Positions 13,861 through 36,494 of a stretch of DNA of 42,531 nucleotides are shown one piece after another. The first letter of the stretch is position 1. Every line of letters begins with the position of its first letter. The stretch lies in the NCBI GenBank assembly GCA_016285145.1, contig JAEEQE010000026.1, positions 1 through 42,531 on the forward strand, given 5' to 3'. Below the pieces are notes generated by a model, which was not told the DNA's origin, did not search any database, and saw nothing but the letters and a program-made list of their open reading frames with translations. The DNA comes from Bacteroidales bacterium (GTDB lineage Bacteria; Bacteroidota; Bacteroidia; Bacteroidales; WCHB1-69). The position numbers were made by a program, and so were the translations under genes.

Positions 13861-16329
13861 ATGAAGATTTCTTATAAATGGTTGAAAGACTTGCTGAAAT
13901 TTGATGTCTCTCCGGAAGAGGCTTCCGCCTATCTGACCAACTGCGGACTGGAAGTGGAAGGTATGGAGTTGTTTGAAACCGTTCGCGGTGGGCTTCGTGG
14001 CCTGGTGATCGGTGAGGTTCTCACCTGCGAGGAACATCCCAATTCCGACCATCTGCATGTGACCACGGTCAATGTAGGGGCGGAGGAACCGCTCCATATC
14101 GTGTGTGGCGCGCCCAATGTGGCCGCTGGCCAGAAAGTGGTGGTCGCCACCATCGGCACCACGCTCTATCAGGGTGATGAATCCTTTGTGATCAAAAAGT
14201 CCAAGCTCCGCGGCGAGCCTTCCGAAGGCATGATTTGCGCCGAGGATGAAATCGGGCTCGGCACCTCACACGACGGCATCATGGTATTGCCGGAAGAGGC
14301 AGTGCCCGGCACTCCCGCCGCGCAATACTTCCATATCGAGTCGGACACCATTTTCGAAATCGGTCTCACCCCCAACCGTTGCGACGCTATCTCGCATGTC
14401 GGGGTGGCCCGCGACCTTTACGCGGCCCTGATGCAGGACAACCGTCCCTGTTCCCCGCTCATTCTCCCCAACGCCCCGATGGTGAAACCCATCGCCAATG
14501 TGACGTTCCGCGTGGACATCGCCGTGGAGAACACCCGCGACTGTCCCCGTTATACGGGATTGCTTTTCGATAATGTGAAGGTGGGGCCCTCTCCCGAATG
14601 GCTTCAGACAAAACTGAAATCCGTGGGCATCCGCCCCATCAACAATGTGGTGGACATCACGCAGTTCATCATGCTGGAGCTGGGTCAGCCCATGCACGCC
14701 TTCGATGCCGACAAGATTAAGGGCAACAAGGTGATTGTGAAAAACTTGCCGGAAGGTACGCCTTTCGTTACATTAGATGGTAATGAGGTGAAACTCCATT
14801 CGGAGGACCTGATGATTTGCAACGCCGAAGAGGGCATGTGCATTGCCGGCGTTTATGGTGGTCTGCATTCCGGCATCACCGAAAACACCACACGTCTGTT
14901 CCTCGAGAGTGCCTACTTCAACCCCGTCTCCATCCGGAAAACCGCGAAACGGCACGGCTTGAAGACGGATGCGTCTTTCCGTTATGAGCGTGGCTGCGAC
15001 CCGAGCATCACAGTTTACGCCATCCTGCGGGCCGCCGAACTGGTTATGGAACTGACGGGCGCATCCCCCATCTCCGAAGTGATGGACTATTATCCCAAAA
15101 AGATTGATCCGGCCCAAATCACCCTTTTCTATGAGGATGTGAATAAAGTTGCCGGAAAAGTCATTGACAAACAGACGGTTTCCAAAATCCTCCTCATGTT
15201 GGGCATGGAAGTGCATACTTCCGGTGAGGATCAACTGATGGTGACCGTTCCGCTGAACAAGGCGGATGTGACGCGACCGATTGATTTGATTGAGGAGATT
15301 CTCCGTATTTATGGTTATAACAATATTGAGATTCCGGACATCCTGACGTACAGGCTCAGTAATAAGGCTGCACAGGATTCTGCATATCAACTTCAAGTAG
15401 CTATTTCTAACTATTTGTCAGATAATGGTTTCTATGAAGTGATGAATAATTCGCTCACTAAAGCTGAATATGCTGAGAAGTGTGATTTTCTCCGAGCTGA
15501 AGAGACCGTGCGCCTGCTCAATCCGCTGAGCACGGAACTGAACGCCATGCGGCAGACGCTCCTTTTCGGCGTGCTGGAGAATGTGGAGCGCAACGTCAAC
15601 AACCGCCAAGCCAATTTGCGGCTTTTCGAGTTCGGAAAGATTTATAAACTCAATACGGAAACAAACAAGGGCGATGATGTGGTGACCCGCTATCAGGAAG
15701 AACCGCATTTTGTACTTTGTGTGACGGGCAAGGATTCGGAAGACACCTGGAACCGTAAGGCGCAGGACTTAGACCTTTTCTATTTGAGGAACATGGTGGA
15801 CAATGTCTTGGAAAAAATAAACTTCCCGACAAACCGGTTGCAGCGTCTTGTGGACACTCCTTCGCGGATGTTTGCCGACCATCTTTCCTATATGGTTGGA
15901 GAAGAAGAAATTGTAACCATTGGTCTTCTGAATGCTTCCGTGCTGAAGGCTTTCGGACTGAAGATCCCAGTGTATTATGCGGAGTTCAATTACCCGGCTC
16001 TCGTACGCATGGTGGAAGATCGTAAGGTTAACTATCAGCCGATAGCCACTCATCCCGCCGTTCGCCGCGACCTGGCCTTGGTGGTCAACCGCGAAGTGAC
16101 GTATGAGATGTTGGAGTCGATCGGATACAAGTACGGTTCCAAATTGGTGAAGCGCATTTCGTTGTTTGACGTGTACGAGGGCGATAAGGTGGAGGCCGGC
16201 AAGAAATCCTATGCGTTGAGTTTTGTGCTTCAACATGCCGATAAGACACTGACGGATGAGGAGATCAACAAAGTTATGTCCAAATTGGTGTCCGCGTACG
16301 AGCGGGAAGTGGGTGCTAAACTGAGATAG
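13861..16329 (+). CDS. pheT: Phenylalanine--tRNA ligase beta subunit
   Basis: PheT pairs with PheS (not in the window) in the alpha2-beta2 enzyme that charges tRNA-Phe. The 822-residue length and domain order are normal: N-terminal block MKISYKWLKDLL, tRNA-binding OB domain at about 40-150, B3/B4 editing domain (about 210-400, with GMCIAGVYGG), B5 domain, core catalytic-like domain, and C-terminal FDX-ACB domain (about 728-822, including HPAVRRDLALVV and KSYALSFVLQHADKTLTDEEI). About 15310-15500 uses distinctly more A/T-ending codons than the rest. It is followed after 3 bases by the FAD synthetase gene, so pheT probably leads an operon through topA. Confidence 0.97.
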   Translation: MKISYKWLKDLLKFDVSPEEASAYLTNCGLEVEGMELFETVRGGLRGLVIGEVLTCEEHPNSDHLHVTTVNVGAEEPLHIVCGAPNVAAGQKVVVATIGTTLYQGDESFVIKKSKLRGEPSEGMICAEDEIGLGTSHDGIMVLPEEAVPGTPAAQYFHIESDTIFEIGLTPNRCDAISHVGVARDLYAALMQDNRPCSPLILPNAPMVKPIANVTFRVDIAVENTRDCPRYTGLLFDNVKVGPSPEWLQTKLKSVGIRPINNVVDITQFIMLELGQPMHAFDADKIKGNKVIVKNLPEGTPFVTLDGNEVKLHSEDLMICNAEEGMCIAGVYGGLHSGITENTTRLFLESAYFNPVSIRKTAKRHGLKTDASFRYERGCDPSITVYAILRAAELVMELTGASPISEVMDYYPKKIDPAQITLFYEDVNKVAGKVIDKQTVSKILLMLGMEVHTSGEDQLMVTVPLNKADVTRPIDLIEEILRIYGYNNIEIPDILTYRLSNKAAQDSAYQLQVAISNYLSDNGFYEVMNNSLTKAEYAEKCDFLRAEETVRLLNPLSTELNAMRQTLLFGVLENVERNVNNRQANLRLFEFGKIYKLNTETNKGDDVVTRYQEEPHFVLCVTGKDSEDTWNRKAQDLDLFYLRNMVDNVLEKINFPTNRLQRLVDTPSRMFADHLSYMVGEEEIVTIGLLNASVLKAFGLKIPVYYAEFNYPALVRMVEDRKVNYQPIATHPAVRRDLALVVNREVTYEMLESIGYKYGSKLVKRISLFDVYEGDKVEAGKKSYALSFVLQHADKTLTDEEINKVMSKLVSAYEREVGAKLR

Positions 16330-16332
16330 TGT

Positions 16333-16944
16333 ATGAGAGTGATCCGGGGTTTTGACGAAGATGCCGGCCTGAATGCGCCGGTGGCCGCCATCGGTTCCTT
16401 CGATGGTGTCCATCTGGGTCATTGCCGGGTACTGCGTTATCTGTGCGAATATGCGCATCGGACGGGTGGCGACAGTGTGGTGGTTACCTTTGACCCGCAT
16501 CCCCAGCAGGTACTTCGCCCGAATTCGGATTTCTTTAATATCAATAGTTTAGAAAAGAATATTGAATTGATTGGAAAACAAGGAGTTGATGCTGTGTTGA
16601 TCGTCCCGTTCACCCAAGCCTTTTCCCAACTGTCGTATTCGGATTTTATTGACCAATATATGATTGGTAAACTCCGGGTGTCCGCGTTGGTGATGGGCCC
16701 CAACCATGCTTTGGGCCATAAACGTGCCGGCGGAAGGGAAGCCATTGAGAACCTTTGCAAAGAGCGTGGGGTGCATGTGGTGGAACTGCCGGAGATGATG
16801 TGCCATGATGTGGCCGTTCATTCGGCCAAGATCCGCAAACTCATCACGGAAGGCCGATGGAACGATGTGGACGAATTGTTAGGCTATCATTATGTGTGGG
16901 AATGTAAAGACGCGCCGCGCGTCTCAAAATTAATGAATAAATAA
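16333..16944 (+). CDS. ribF: FAD synthetase (FMN adenylyltransferase) domain protein, RibF lacking its kinase half
   Basis: The 203-residue protein is the N-terminal half of RibF. It has the nucleotidyltransferase motif GSFDGVHLGH (21-30), VVTFDPHP (50-57), MGPNHALGH, and HSAKIRKLITEGRW in place of the usual SSTxIR. It ends right after LGYHYVW, the point where bifunctional RibF (about 300 residues) continues into riboflavin kinase. The end is a normal stop; topA follows after 13 bases, with no frameshifted kinase sequence between. The missing half is encoded at 34539-34943. The predicted reaction is FMN + ATP to FAD + PPi. It lies between pheT and topA, probably cotranscribed. Confidence 0.9.
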   Translation: MRVIRGFDEDAGLNAPVAAIGSFDGVHLGHCRVLRYLCEYAHRTGGDSVVVTFDPHPQQVLRPNSDFFNINSLEKNIELIGKQGVDAVLIVPFTQAFSQLSYSDFIDQYMIGKLRVSALVMGPNHALGHKRAGGREAIENLCKERGVHVVELPEMMCHDVAVHSAKIRKLITEGRWNDVDELLGYHYVWECKDAPRVSKLMNK

Positions 16945-16957
16945 AAAATACAATTAT

Positions 16958-19450
16958 ATGAGCAAGAATCTGATTATCGTTGAGTCTCCGGCAAAGGCCA
17001 AGACCATTCAGAAGTTCATCGGTAAGGATTTTACGGTGATTTCGAGCAAAGGGCATGTTTGTGATCTGCCGCAGAAGGACATCGGTATTGATGTGGCCAA
17101 AGGTTTCGAACCCAAATACATCATTTTGGATGACAAGAAGGCCCTGATTAGCGACATCAAGAAGAAGGCGCAGGAGGCTGATGTGATATGGCTGGCGACG
17201 GATGACGACCGCGAGGGTGAGGCTATCTCCTGGCACCTGATGCAAGTCACTAAAATGGATCCGTCCAAAGTAAGGAGAATCGTTTTCCATGAGATTACGA
17301 AGGGAGCCATCGAGAACGCGTTGGCCAACCCGCGGGATCTGAACATTGATCTGGTGAACGCCCAGCAGGCGCGCCGTGTGTTGGACCGTCTGGTGGGCTT
17401 CGAACTGTCGCCCGTCTTGTGGCGCAAGGTGAAACCCCAACTGTCTGCCGGACGTGTGCAGTCGGTGGCCGTGAAGCTGATTGTGGAGCGTGAACACGAA
17501 ATCGAACGCTTCAACAGCACCTTCTCCTACAAAGTGGAGGGTGCCTTTGTCTCGGAGCGCGACCGTCAGGTTGAACTCTCCACGGAGCTGAACAAGAAGT
17601 TCAACACCCGCGAGGAGGCCATGAAGTTTCTGGAGGATTGTAAGAACGCCACGTTCAAAGTGGCGGCCATTGAAAAGTCCCCCGGCAAGAAAAGTCCCGC
17701 CCCTCCGTTCACCACTTCAACGCTCCAACAGGAGGCCGCCCGGAAATTAGGATTCTCCGTCAGCAAGACGATGGTGGTGGCCCAGCAACTCTATGAGGCC
17801 GGTTACATCACCTATATGCGTACCGACTCCGTGAACCTGTCGGCCTTCGCCCTCGCGACGGCCAAGGATGTGATCACGGAACTGTACGGCGCGGAATACT
17901 CGCACCTGCACAATTTTGTGACCAAGACCAAGGGCGCGCAAGAGGCCCACGAGGCTATCCGTCCCACGGACATGTCGCGACAGACAGTTCCGGGCGACAC
18001 TTTCGTGAAGCATCTCTATGAATTGATTTGGAAGCGCACCATCGCCTCTCAGATGAGCGATGCGAAAACCGAAAAGACCAGCATCACGATTCCGGTGTCG
18101 AACCGGTCGGAGAAATTCGTGGCCAACGGGGAAGTGATCCTCTTCCCAGGCTTCCTTAAAGTATATACCGAATCCAAGGATGAGGAGAGTGAAGAGGTCA
18201 AGGGACTGCTGCCTGTGGTGCAACAGGATGAGAACCTTTTGTCGAAGAGCATCACAGCCACCCAGCGTTTCGCCCAGCCGCCCGCACGCTATACCGAGGC
18301 TACACTGGTGAAGAAACTGGAGGAATTGGGCATTGGCCGTCCCTCCACATACGCCACTATCATCACTACGATACAGAAGAGGGGTTATGTGCAGAAGGCC
18401 ACCCGTCCGGGCAAGGAACGCAAATACGATTGCCTTGTCCTGAAGAACGGTACCCTGAAAGAGGAGGAACGCACGGAGAAATACGGTTATGAGAAGGAGA
18501 AAATCATCCCCACGGACGTGGGCATTGTGGTGAACGATTATCTGCAGGAGAATTTCCAAGATATCATGGATTACGGATTTACTGCCGATGTGGAGAAGAA
18601 ATTTGATGATATAGCTGAAGGCAAAGAACAATGGCAGAGTATGTTGCAGCATTTTTACGGCGGCTTCCACGATTCGGTGGACCATGCCTTGAACTATTCC
18701 GCCAAGGCCAGTGGCGAGCGGTTGCTCGGCTACGATCCGGTCAGCAATGCCAAGGTGTTCGCCAAATTGGGCAAATACGGTCCCATGGTCCAGATAGGGG
18801 AGAATTACGCGGATGAGAAACCCCGTTATGCACGCCTCCGTCCCAACCAGTTCATCGAGACCATCACGCTGGAAGAGGCAATGGAACTGTTTAAACTGCC
18901 CCGCACGGTGGGTGAGTGGAATGGCCATGAAGTCACGGTGGGTGCCGGACGTTTCGGCCCGTATGTGCGTTACGAAGACACGTTCGTGTCCATCCCCAAG
19001 GATGAAGACCCGATTTCCATCTCTCTGGAGCGTTGCATTCAGATTCTGGAAGAGAAACAAAAAAAGGATGCCGACCGGGCGCCCCGTCTGATCGGACATT
19101 ACAACGGTAAGGAGATTATGGCCGCTGCCGGACGTTACGGCCCTTATCTGAAATATGATGGCAAGAACATCACGTTGGGCAAAGGCATGGACCTCAGCAG
19201 CCTGACCGAGGAGTCCGCCATTGATTTCCTGCAGAACGCACAAACCAAGAACGTGTTACGCTCCTTTGAAGAGGATGATAATATTAAAGTGATGAACGGT
19301 CGCTACGGGGCATACATCACCAATGGCACTGACAATTTCAAGATTCCCAAAGGCATGGCTGCGGAGAATATGACCTATCAGGATTGTTTGGAAATCATTC
19401 GCAATACTACCCCCACGGCCAAGAAACGTATCATCCGCAAAAAGAGCTAA
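16958..19450 (+). CDS. topA: DNA topoisomerase I
   Basis: A type IA topoisomerase of 830 residues that relaxes negative supercoils. The Toprim start is LIIVESPAKAKTIQKF, with DDDREGE near residue 85; the active-site tyrosine is in AGYITYMRTDS. The C-terminal quarter has Toprim-C repeats seen as GRYGPY-type segments (GKYGPMVQIG, GRFGPYVRYE, GRYGPYLKYD, GRYGAYITNG) instead of Cys4 zinc fingers, as is usual in Bacteroidetes. The arginase-like gene starts 2 bases after the stop, so they are cotranscribed. It is slightly longer than typical Bacteroidales TopA but intact. Confidence 0.97.
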   Translation: MSKNLIIVESPAKAKTIQKFIGKDFTVISSKGHVCDLPQKDIGIDVAKGFEPKYIILDDKKALISDIKKKAQEADVIWLATDDDREGEAISWHLMQVTKMDPSKVRRIVFHEITKGAIENALANPRDLNIDLVNAQQARRVLDRLVGFELSPVLWRKVKPQLSAGRVQSVAVKLIVEREHEIERFNSTFSYKVEGAFVSERDRQVELSTELNKKFNTREEAMKFLEDCKNATFKVAAIEKSPGKKSPAPPFTTSTLQQEAARKLGFSVSKTMVVAQQLYEAGYITYMRTDSVNLSAFALATAKDVITELYGAEYSHLHNFVTKTKGAQEAHEAIRPTDMSRQTVPGDTFVKHLYELIWKRTIASQMSDAKTEKTSITIPVSNRSEKFVANGEVILFPGFLKVYTESKDEESEEVKGLLPVVQQDENLLSKSITATQRFAQPPARYTEATLVKKLEELGIGRPSTYATIITTIQKRGYVQKATRPGKERKYDCLVLKNGTLKEEERTEKYGYEKEKIIPTDVGIVVNDYLQENFQDIMDYGFTADVEKKFDDIAEGKEQWQSMLQHFYGGFHDSVDHALNYSAKASGERLLGYDPVSNAKVFAKLGKYGPMVQIGENYADEKPRYARLRPNQFIETITLEEAMELFKLPRTVGEWNGHEVTVGAGRFGPYVRYEDTFVSIPKDEDPISISLERCIQILEEKQKKDADRAPRLIGHYNGKEIMAAAGRYGPYLKYDGKNITLGKGMDLSSLTEESAIDFLQNAQTKNVLRSFEEDDNIKVMNGRYGAYITNGTDNFKIPKGMAAENMTYQDCLEIIRNTTPTAKKRIIRKKS

Positions 19451-33827: not shown

Positions 33828-34589
33828 ATGCATATAACACTGTTAGGAACCGGAACATCGCAGGGCGTGCCCGTGGTGGGATGCCCCTGTGCGGTCTGCC
33901 ATTCGGCGGATCCGCGCGACCAGCGTCTCCGAACCTCCGCCTTTGTGGAGGTGGACGACACAAATATTCTTATTGATACGGGTCCGGATTTGCGGATGCA
34001 GCTTTTGCGAAACAACATCACCCGTGTGGATGCGATTCTTGTCACCCATGAACACAAAGACCATCTGGCCGGTTTGGATGACATCCGGCCCATTTATTTC
34101 AAACAGCAGCAGCCTATTGATATTTTTTCTCTCCAGCGGGTGGCCAACGTCATCCGCAAGGATTTCGACTACGCGTTCAAGGCCCATCCCTATCCGGGTG
34201 CTCCTGCGTTTTGCCTGCACCATGTACGCGACGAGGTCTTCCAGGTGAAGAATGTGGAGGTCCAACCCATCCACGTGCGCCATCTCACCCTCCCGATTAT
34301 TGGCTTTCGTATCAAAAACTTCGCCTATATCACGGATGCCAGCTTCATTTCTGAATCAGAACTTGCTAAATTGAAAGGATTGTCAGTGCTGGTTGTTAAT
34401 GCATTGAGAATCAAGGAACATTATTCGCATTTCAATCTCGAACAGGCATTGAATATTATCCAACAGTTGCAACCCCAACAGGCAGTGCTTACACATGTTT
34501 CGCATGAAATGGGCCTCTATGCGGATGTCGAACGTCAACTACCCGACAATGTCATGCTCGGATTCGACGGTCAGATGCTCCACTGCTAA
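33828..34589 (+). CDS. MBL-fold metallo-hydrolase, PhnP-like
   Basis: This 253-residue cytoplasmic protein begins with LLGTGTSQGVPVVGCPCAVC, typical of PhnP/RNase Z-like phosphodiesterases. It has the metal motif THEHKDHLAGLDDIRP (about 67-82), later His residues in VRHLTLP and LTHVSHEMG, and ITDAS. PhnP hydrolyses cyclic ribose phosphates in phosphonate degradation, but many Bacteroidetes have this gene without a phn operon, so the substrate is uncertain. The conserved N-terminus fixes the start at 33828. Its 3' end overlaps the riboflavin kinase gene tail-to-tail by 51 bases. Around 34340-34480 codons are more A/T-rich than elsewhere in the gene. Confidence 0.9.
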   Translation: MHITLLGTGTSQGVPVVGCPCAVCHSADPRDQRLRTSAFVEVDDTNILIDTGPDLRMQLLRNNITRVDAILVTHEHKDHLAGLDDIRPIYFKQQQPIDIFSLQRVANVIRKDFDYAFKAHPYPGAPAFCLHHVRDEVFQVKNVEVQPIHVRHLTLPIIGFRIKNFAYITDASFISESELAKLKGLSVLVVNALRIKEHYSHFNLEQALNIIQQLQPQQAVLTHVSHEMGLYADVERQLPDNVMLGFDGQMLHC

Positions 34590-34954: not shown

Positions 34955-36406
34955 CTATCCGATGCTGCCGGAAAGACTGATGTTCAGCAGTTTCTGTGCC
35001 TCCACGGCAAATTCCATCGGCAGTTTGCTCAACACATCCTTGGCGTATCCGTTCACAATGAGGCCGATGGCTGTCTCCTTGTCGATGCCGCGTTGCTGGC
35101 AGTAGAAGAGCTGGTCGTCGGAGATTTTGGAGGTGGTGGCCTCATGCTCCAGGATTGCCGACTGGTTGGCGCATTGGATGTCGGGCCATGTGTGCGCACC
35201 GCATTTGTCGCCCATGAGCAGGGAGTCGCACTGGGAGAAGTTGCGAGCGTTTTCGGCGTTTTTGCCCACTTTCACCAGACCGCGGTAGCTGTTCTGGCTG
35301 TGGCCTGCGGAGATGCCCTTGGAGACAATCAGGCTGCGGGTGTTGCGCCCCAGATGGATCATTTTCGTGCCCGTGTCGGCCTGCTGGAAGTTGTTGGTCA
35401 CGGCCACGGAGTAGAACTCGCCCACGGAGTTGTCGCCCTTGAGCACGCAGCCGGGGTATTTCCACGTGATGGCGGAGCCGGTCTCCACCTGTGTCCACGA
35501 GATCTTGGAGTTGGCACCCTTGCACAGGCCGCGCTTGGTGACGAGGTTGTAAATGCCGCCGTTGCCGTCCTTGTCGCCCGGATACCAGTTCTGCACCGTG
35601 GAGTATTTGATCTCGGCATCCTTCATGGCAATCAGTTCCACGACGGCTGCATGAAGCTGGTTCTCATCACGTTGCGGGGCGGTGCAGCCCTCCATGTAGC
35701 TCACGTACGCACCCTCGTCGGCGATGAGCAGCGTGCGCTCGAACTGGCCTGTCTTGGCCGCGTTGATACGGAAATAGGTGGATAACTCTATTGGACAGCG
35801 CACGCCCTTGGGGATGTAGCAGAAGGAACCCTCGCTGAACACGGCGGAATTCAACGCCGCGTAGAAATTGTCTGTATAGGGAACCACCGAGCCGAGGTAT
35901 TGGCGCACCAGGTCGGGATACTGCTGGATGGCCTCGCCGAAAGAGCAGAAGATGATGCCCTGCTTCTTCAGCGTTTCCGAAAAGGTGGTCTTCACCGACA
36001 CGGAATCCATCACAGCATCCACGGCCACGCCGGCCAGCACCTTTTGTTCTTCCAGATTGATGCCCAGCTTGTTGAATGTGTCAACGAGCTCGGGATCAAC
36101 CTCGTCCATGCTGGCGAGCTGTTTTTTCTTTTTGGGAATGGCCAGATAGGTGATGTCTTGGTAATCCGGACGTTTGAAGTCCAGGTGCCCCCATTCGGGT
36201 TCCGGGAGGGTGGTCCAGTGACGGTAGGCTTTGAGGCGGAATTCCAGCAGCCATTCGGGCTCGTTCTTGCGGGCGGAGATCCTGCGGATAATGTCCTCGT
36301 TGATGCCTTTGGGAAACTCTTCTATATCAATATCCGACGTGAACCCGTACTTGTATTCATCGTTGGTGATTTCGTCTAATATATTCTGGTCTTTTTTATC
36401 CTGCAT
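34955..36406 (-). CDS. sufB: Fe-S cluster assembly scaffold SufB
   Basis: A 483-residue SufB, the scaffold that with SufC and SufD builds Fe-S clusters. Recognised blocks are [13 protein letters not shown] near 55-70, [57 protein letters not shown], and the C-terminal [23 protein letters not shown]. The start at 36406 is preferred; the longer reading adds 21 residues that overlap the promoter. Usually sufC, sufD and sufS follow, but here the next gene is riboflavin kinase and then the strand changes, so the rest of the suf set must lie elsewhere. Expressed from a TATTTTTG promoter. Confidence 0.96.
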
Positions 36407-36440
36407 ATAAATAAAAATGTTGTTGTTTTTTTGAGGGCGC

Positions 36441-36448
36441 AAAAATAC
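36441..36448 (-). promoter_or_regulatory. -7 promoter element (TATTTTTG) for sufB-riboflavin kinase
   Basis: TATTTTTG on the minus strand lies 34 bases upstream of the sufB ATG, just after the terminator of the DUF5362 gene. Confidence 0.6.
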
Positions 36449-36456
36449 GAATTTTG

Positions 36457-36494
36457 TAAAAAAAAGCACACACCTCTTTCAAAGTGTGTGCTTC
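36457..36494 (-). terminator. Intrinsic terminator of the DUF5362 gene
   Basis: A perfect 10-bp stem AAGCACACAC/GTGTGTGCTT (36465-36474 with 36485-36494, 10-base loop) is followed on the minus strand by a run of eight or more Ts. It lies 22 bases after the DUF5362 stop and separates that gene from the sufB promoter. Confidence 0.85.

Follow-up and report, generated by a model that had tools for sequence, protein, structure and literature searches.

Riboflavin kinase and FMN adenylyltransferase encoded by two separate genes in an uncultured genus of Bacteroidales

Riboflavin kinase and FAD synthesis are carried on one chain in nearly all bacteria. In a MAG from a genus of uncultured gut Bacteroidales (the gut habitat being taken from the nearest relatives), we identified RibF as two genes, each with the domain of one activity. 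Both genes lie whole on one contig, 17.6 kb apart, within the stretch of 42,531 nucleotides that was analyzed and is called the window here (Table 1). We consider it very probable that the two genes carry the two activities of RibF on separate proteins, with the FMN adenylyltransferase (FMNAT) adapted to life without a fused kinase. The riboflavin kinase (RFK) would produce FMN from riboflavin and ATP, and FMNAT would produce FAD from FMN and ATP, so that FMN would have to pass between the two proteins. Both genes would have moved from an ancestral ribF locus.

Two genes with one RibF domain each

Table 1. Features of the window, with the profile match and relative position of each
Feature	Coordinates	Strand	Match and position
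Free-standing FMN adenylyltransferase (FMNAT), N-terminal RibF half, 203 aa	16333..16944	+	Pfam FAD_syn E 6e-43
Free-standing riboflavin kinase (RFK), C-terminal RibF half, 134 aa	34539..34943	-	Pfam Flavokinase E 6e-32
pheT	13861..16329	+	TIGR00472 805.6 bits; 3 bases from FMNAT gene
topA	16958..19450	+	TIGR01051 680.3 bits; 13 bases past FMNAT gene
sufB	34955..36469	-	TIGR01980 628.4 bits; upstream of RFK, same strand, 11-base gap
PhnP-like MBL-fold hydrolase gene	33828..34589	+	NF002553 300.1 bits, under cut-off 386

In Pfam searches, FMNAT matched FAD_syn with 146.8 bits (cut-off 27) and had no Flavokinase domain, and RFK matched Flavokinase with 110.9 bits (cut-off 19.6) and had no other domain. 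An earlier note on this DNA had reported RibF as two genes, and both open reading frames were found at the coordinates and strands it gave, each with the domain of one half only. The note had also named a bifunctional RibF elsewhere in the genome as the finding that would speak against a split. When all contigs of the assembly (94.8% complete) were searched for both domains, the single FAD_syn match and the single Flavokinase match were the 2 window genes, and the assembly therefore has no bifunctional RibF. The window pair lacks what defines bifunctional RibF, or FAD synthetase (FADS) type I, namely both domains on one chain. Against the NCBIfam RibF model (TIGR00083), FMNAT scored 103.9 bits and RFK 82.1 bits, both below the cut-off of 184.35, so annotation pipelines may miss both genes.

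The 71 contigs of the assembly could raise the suspicion that the split is an assembly or frameshift artefact of one MAG. This reading is excluded, since every one of the 34 same-genus genomes in which FMNAT was matched shows the same arrangement, and the 2 genes are each intact on a single contig, which leaves an artefact a vanishingly small probability.

The placement of FMNAT with topA and pheT and of RFK with sufB, also described in the earlier note, was seen in the window and is mostly conserved in the genus. Among the other same-genus loci fetched, pheT adjoins FMNAT in 33 of 34 (in the exception, the locus starts at the contig edge) and topA does so in all 34, with pheT, FMNAT, and topA on one strand; at 21 of 28 RFK loci, sufB is encoded upstream of RFK on its strand, no more than 1.1 kb away. 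At the loci of deeper-branching relatives, L031 keeps a larger block, L033 keeps pheT, and L032 keeps neither. The PhnP-like gene is convergent with RFK, overlapping its end by 51 bases, and is found near RFK in 3 of the 28 other same-genus loci. A PhnP-like relative is located behind the gene of RibF2, a RibF paralogue of this order, in 11 of 18 RibF2 loci (loci with a PhnP-like gene besides the window: L008, L012, L119, L121, L122, L123, L126, L127, L140, L141, and L144). An Rfam search of the window identified 2 tRNAs only and no FMN riboswitch. With conserved neighborhoods and no riboswitch match in the window, the separate control of FMN and FAD proposed in the earlier note stays a suggestion.

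Distribution in the genus and beyond

We searched a sample of 60 relatives, comprising 36 genomes of the same genus (the window genome included) and 24 from other families of the order, and found FAD_syn in 58 of them. In the same genus, 34 of 36 genomes had an FMNAT match, all in short open frames of 193 to 229 aa, and the 24 genomes of other families had frames of 298 to 358 aa with a fused copy in each. Of the 36 same-genus genomes, 29 had a Flavokinase match; the other 7 are 51% to 87% complete, so their missing RFK says little. Where both halves were present in a same-genus genome, they either sat on different contigs or were separated by 17.6 kb or more. The halves are also apart in the L031 and L032 genomes; in the L040 genome, likewise deeper-branching, RFK is free and FMNAT runs off a contig end, and in the L033 genome FMNAT is free and RFK was not found. 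The FMNATs of the genus and L031 to L033 form one clade (support 99/94 in the careful tree), and the RFKs of the genus and three relatives form another (support 97, in a tree from which 6 near-identical RFK rows, the RibF2 rows, and the outgroup were dropped). One event therefore fits the genus and its deeper relatives, and the best explanation is that the separation predates the genus.

Two MAGs of the set, G006 (L074, L075) and G018 (L201, L202), carry 2 RFK genes each. A foreign source of the second copies is possible, as G006 has 7% contamination and L201 shares 78% identity with the RFK from the L032 genome.

The view that bifunctional RibF is the norm and the split rare was borne out by the phylum draw (392 genomes at 90% completeness or more, 6 of them from this order), in which RibF was matched in 391 and exceeded the cut-off in 389; the exceptions were the window genome and G400, both below the cut-off, and G582, which had no match. 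An even draw of the order took in 295 genomes, of which, among the matches listed, 281 matched RibF and 265 exceeded the cut-off. The 22 genomes of the order draw with weak or doubled matches were re-searched; G118 and G216, whose genes are cut by contig ends, were left out of the split count, and G085, G286, G134, and G092, in which a RibF2-like gene was the only one detected, were left unclassified.

The order holds several further states of RibF. In f113, both genomes had an FMNAT with a decayed kinase-like tail and a separate RFK; a 638-aa kinase fusion considered for the f113 genome G147 was rejected, as its frame was judged by eye to be a non-coding stretch upstream of an ordinary start. 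In f32, all 3 genomes had a pair of full-length genes: in one the kinase is good and the HxGH region altered, and in the other the reverse holds (Pfam run on the gene pair of one genome; L129, L131, and L142 versus L130, L140, and L144). Free RFK together with RibF2 carrying a weak kinase half was identified in f100 (G234, G318), f54 (G196), and f57 (G091), these kinase halves scoring 50 to 109 bits with a model built in this analysis. Among 15 genomes of f111, RFK was found in 13: 2 have it within a fused RibF, 6 have it free, and 5 (6 loci) have it following a Schlafen AlbA_2 domain in the same protein. Besides the fused copies, FMNAT was read in a single f111 genome, G145 (86% complete), where it is free (211 aa) and RFK was not found.

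Separate FMNAT and RFK are listed for Chthoniobacter flavus, Mesoplasma florum, Mycoplasma capricolum, and M. mycoides in a table from 2010 (PMC2972280, Table 1), so the split as such was already known; the same table gives FADS type I alone for 1171 genomes. Those 4 species resemble the window genome in having no bifunctional RibF and each activity on its own RibF-type module protein. They belong to other lineages, however, and appear there as a species list without a clade-wide map, gene context, or residue changes. According to the introduction of PMC2972280, monofunctional FMNAT was unreported in prokaryotes at that time; the passages of PMC5428420 and PMC6829536 that were consulted hold nothing on isolated FMNAT modules, and one locus of the minimal cell JCVI-syn3A is labelled FMNAT (PMC6609329). 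In PMC2573891, odd sequences, including single halves and halves joined to an unrelated partner, account for less than 5% of the sequences found. Monofunctional bacterial RFK is described for Bacillus subtilis and Streptococcus agalactiae (PMC2972280), a free kinase as here, although B. subtilis has FADS type I too (PMC2972280, Table 1). Alistipes putredinis combines FADS type II with RFK (PMC2972280) and is alike in its free RFK, but its FADS, with a kinase half lacking PTAN, keeps a changed C-terminal module, of which nothing is left in the window FMNAT. FADS type I (CaFADS 2x0k of Corynebacterium, TmFADS 1mrz) has the same 2 domains. Unlike the window pair, it is one chain with contacts between the modules of neighboring protomers and an intact xSS[TS]xxR. 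The split is thus a rare, known arrangement, and here it is well populated, with relatives that have unusual kinase fusions.

FMNAT and RFK active sites, predicted folds, and selection

The earlier note held that both halves keep their motifs, which stood for RFK and in part for FMNAT. The window RFK has GFPTAN, GTRPT, the Glu at the catalytic position, and IRDE, and RFK motif columns match those of fused enzymes except in 9 f1 kinases fused to a GNAT acetyltransferase domain (L070-L074, L076-L079), in which the Arg of [LI]RxE is replaced by Ala and a conserved Asp by Tyr (the GNAT fusions of G025, G009, and G026 were excluded from the column counts). In the alignment of 35 FMNAT rows (CaFADS numbering), HxGH (H28, H31), N125, S164, and R168 are kept in all rows. 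The motif SS[TS]xIR has become HS[A/S]xIR in 35 of 35 rows, with S163H and R77N in every row, T165A in 24, and T165S in 11. Position F128 is non-aromatic in 20 of the 35 rows, and the window FMNAT has A165 and L128. Fused relatives are non-aromatic at 128 in 7 of 49 and at F62, another such position, in 45 of 49.

An AlphaFold2 (AF2) model of FMNAT (pLDDT 92.0, pTM 0.87) predicts a nucleotidyltransferase fold, with CaFADS 2x0k as its best PDB match (TM 0.86 by query length, 29% identity); the RFK model reached pLDDT 87.6 and pTM 0.81. With FAD_syn over the cut-off, this modelled fold, HxGH, and N/D125, FMNAT has several features of a RibF-type adenylyltransferase, although of the motif xSS[TS]xxR it keeps S164 and R168 but not S163, and RFK has the features of PF01687, with its domain over the cut-off, G[FY]PTAN, PT, and the conserved Glu. 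Both genes are under purifying selection: dN/dS (Nei-Gojobori) of the window gene versus relatives was 0.063, 0.069, 0.114, 0.114, and 0.265 for FMNAT and 0.097, 0.147, 0.230, 0.250, and 0.307 for RFK, values that come from 10 of 13 pairs, as 3 further pairs gave no dS.

These substitutions bear on whether the lone FMNAT is active. It could be a nucleotidyltransferase of related type in a cell that imports FAD or makes it with a different enzyme, and the clade-specific change of SS[TS] to HS[A/S], R77N, and the frequent loss of the aromatic residue at F128 would fit such a protein. Work on CaFADS points the same way: its isolated N-terminal domain made no FAD, whether by itself or together with the C-terminal domain, and extracts with the former were inactive and those with the latter active (PMC2573891), while F128A and F128K abolished FMNAT activity (PMC7279473), the position at which the window protein has L. 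On the other side, His28, His31, and N125, reported as essential in CaFADS (PMC3509593), are kept, conservation is strong, and FMNAT is the only FAD_syn match in the assembly. CaFADS T165A, moreover, remains active at about half the rate (kcat 8.1 versus 17 per minute), and T165 is the only residue mutated in that study that contacts the neighboring RFK module (PMC3509593). We therefore regard another function as unlikely and read the substitutions in the ATP and FMN sites, T165 included, as probably reflecting re-tuned module contacts in a still-working adenylyltransferase.

Origin of the two genes and fusions of the freed kinase

The earlier note described the 2 genes as a fission of RibF. 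Two genes there are, but a simple fission of one gene is no more than a possible route to them: the order also has a second RibF copy whose kinase half is weakened (RibF2), and a tree with the f1 FMNATs held with RibF2 was not rejected (AU p 0.319, careful tree). RibF may instead have been duplicated, with one copy losing its kinase half and the other its adenylyltransferase half; the outcome would be the same 2 single-function enzymes, and we give this route a chance approaching that of its opposite. RibF2, a clade whose kinase halves are weak, is represented in 12 families of the sample, f32 included, and its apparent kinase-half loss is much like that of FADS type II. The opposite decay of the 2 full-length f32 copies and the kinase-like tail of the f113 FMNAT also favor duplication, as does position 125, which is N in 35 of 35 f1 FMNATs and 13 of 15 RibF2 and D in 44 of 49 fused enzymes. 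In the quick tree, holding the f1 FMNATs with RibF2 was 37.6 log units better (p 0.835). Further, pheT, topA, or sufB was found at none of 35 fused ribF loci (34 distinct genes), within flanks of about 1.4 kb or less.

Against duplication, the best careful tree sets the FMNATs of f1 and L031 to L033 outside fused RibF and RibF2, which together have support of 98/91, and no kinase remnant was seen in the f1 FMNAT tails. These tails agree with the clean end at the linker that the earlier note had described: 34 of 35 rows run 2 to 17 residues past the domain, with nothing of the shortened, changed C-terminal module that marks FADS type II, and the remaining row runs 35 residues past it in a frame that appears broken. 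At L184 (G017, minus-strand frame 1928-2573), the FMNAT frame appears broken near its C-terminal end, possibly by a sequencing error.

A single origin of the split FMNATs of f1, L031 to L033, f113, and f111, held together, was rejected (AU p 0.0016), and f113 held with f1 alone was not (p 0.382). Before counting, one identical sequence was dropped from each set; the careful FMNAT tree also dropped 12 fused, 23 f1, and 11 of 16 outgroup rows, and the quick FMNAT tree 9 FMNAT rows and the outgroup. The RFK trees have 120 columns only and do not settle the deeper order.

By either route, the reading of 2 genes with one RibF activity each leaves a kinase on its own, and of the 29 same-genus genomes with RFK, 16 have this kinase running into a C-terminal GNAT acetyltransferase domain (L066-L074, L076-L079, L234-L236; Pfam run on 2 of them). 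These fusions may go back to one event or to two. In four other same-genus genomes, a close GNAT is encoded by a gene of its own; the window genome has a bare kinase and only a distant GNAT (40%, contig C32). Each of the 6 loci with an AlbA_2-RFK fusion in f111 (L134/L164/L222, L218, L219, L220, L223, L229) has a GNAT gene immediately upstream. A winged helix is hinted at between AlbA_2 and RFK in the one protein scanned (MarR_2, E 0.011, under the cut-off). The GNATs of f1 and f111 belong to different subclades. That freed RFK was repeatedly recruited into new proteins (GNAT, AlbA_2), marking a flavin-linked acetylation or regulation system, is a speculative reading that we hold doubtful; since GNATs of this type are present in 6 of 24 other families as well, on contigs other than those of their RFK, a chance neighborhood is possible. 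If true, it would be an acetylation or regulation system beyond the reach of fused RibF. Titles and abstract openings, with few subscription journals among them, contained no split RibF in this group, no RFK-GNAT or AlbA_2-RFK fusion, no multiple independent RibF separations in one order, and no paired full-length copies of opposite decay.

RibF in this order is thus found fused, half-decayed, or separate, in the case of f111 inside a single genus, which makes it possible to trace how one gene became two. As the isolated Corynebacterium FMNAT domain is inactive, a naturally free FMNAT offers a direct test. A genus whose FAD apparently comes from such a protein would be a natural counter-example, in which the dependence of the modules on each other, the hand-over of FMN, and separate control become testable.
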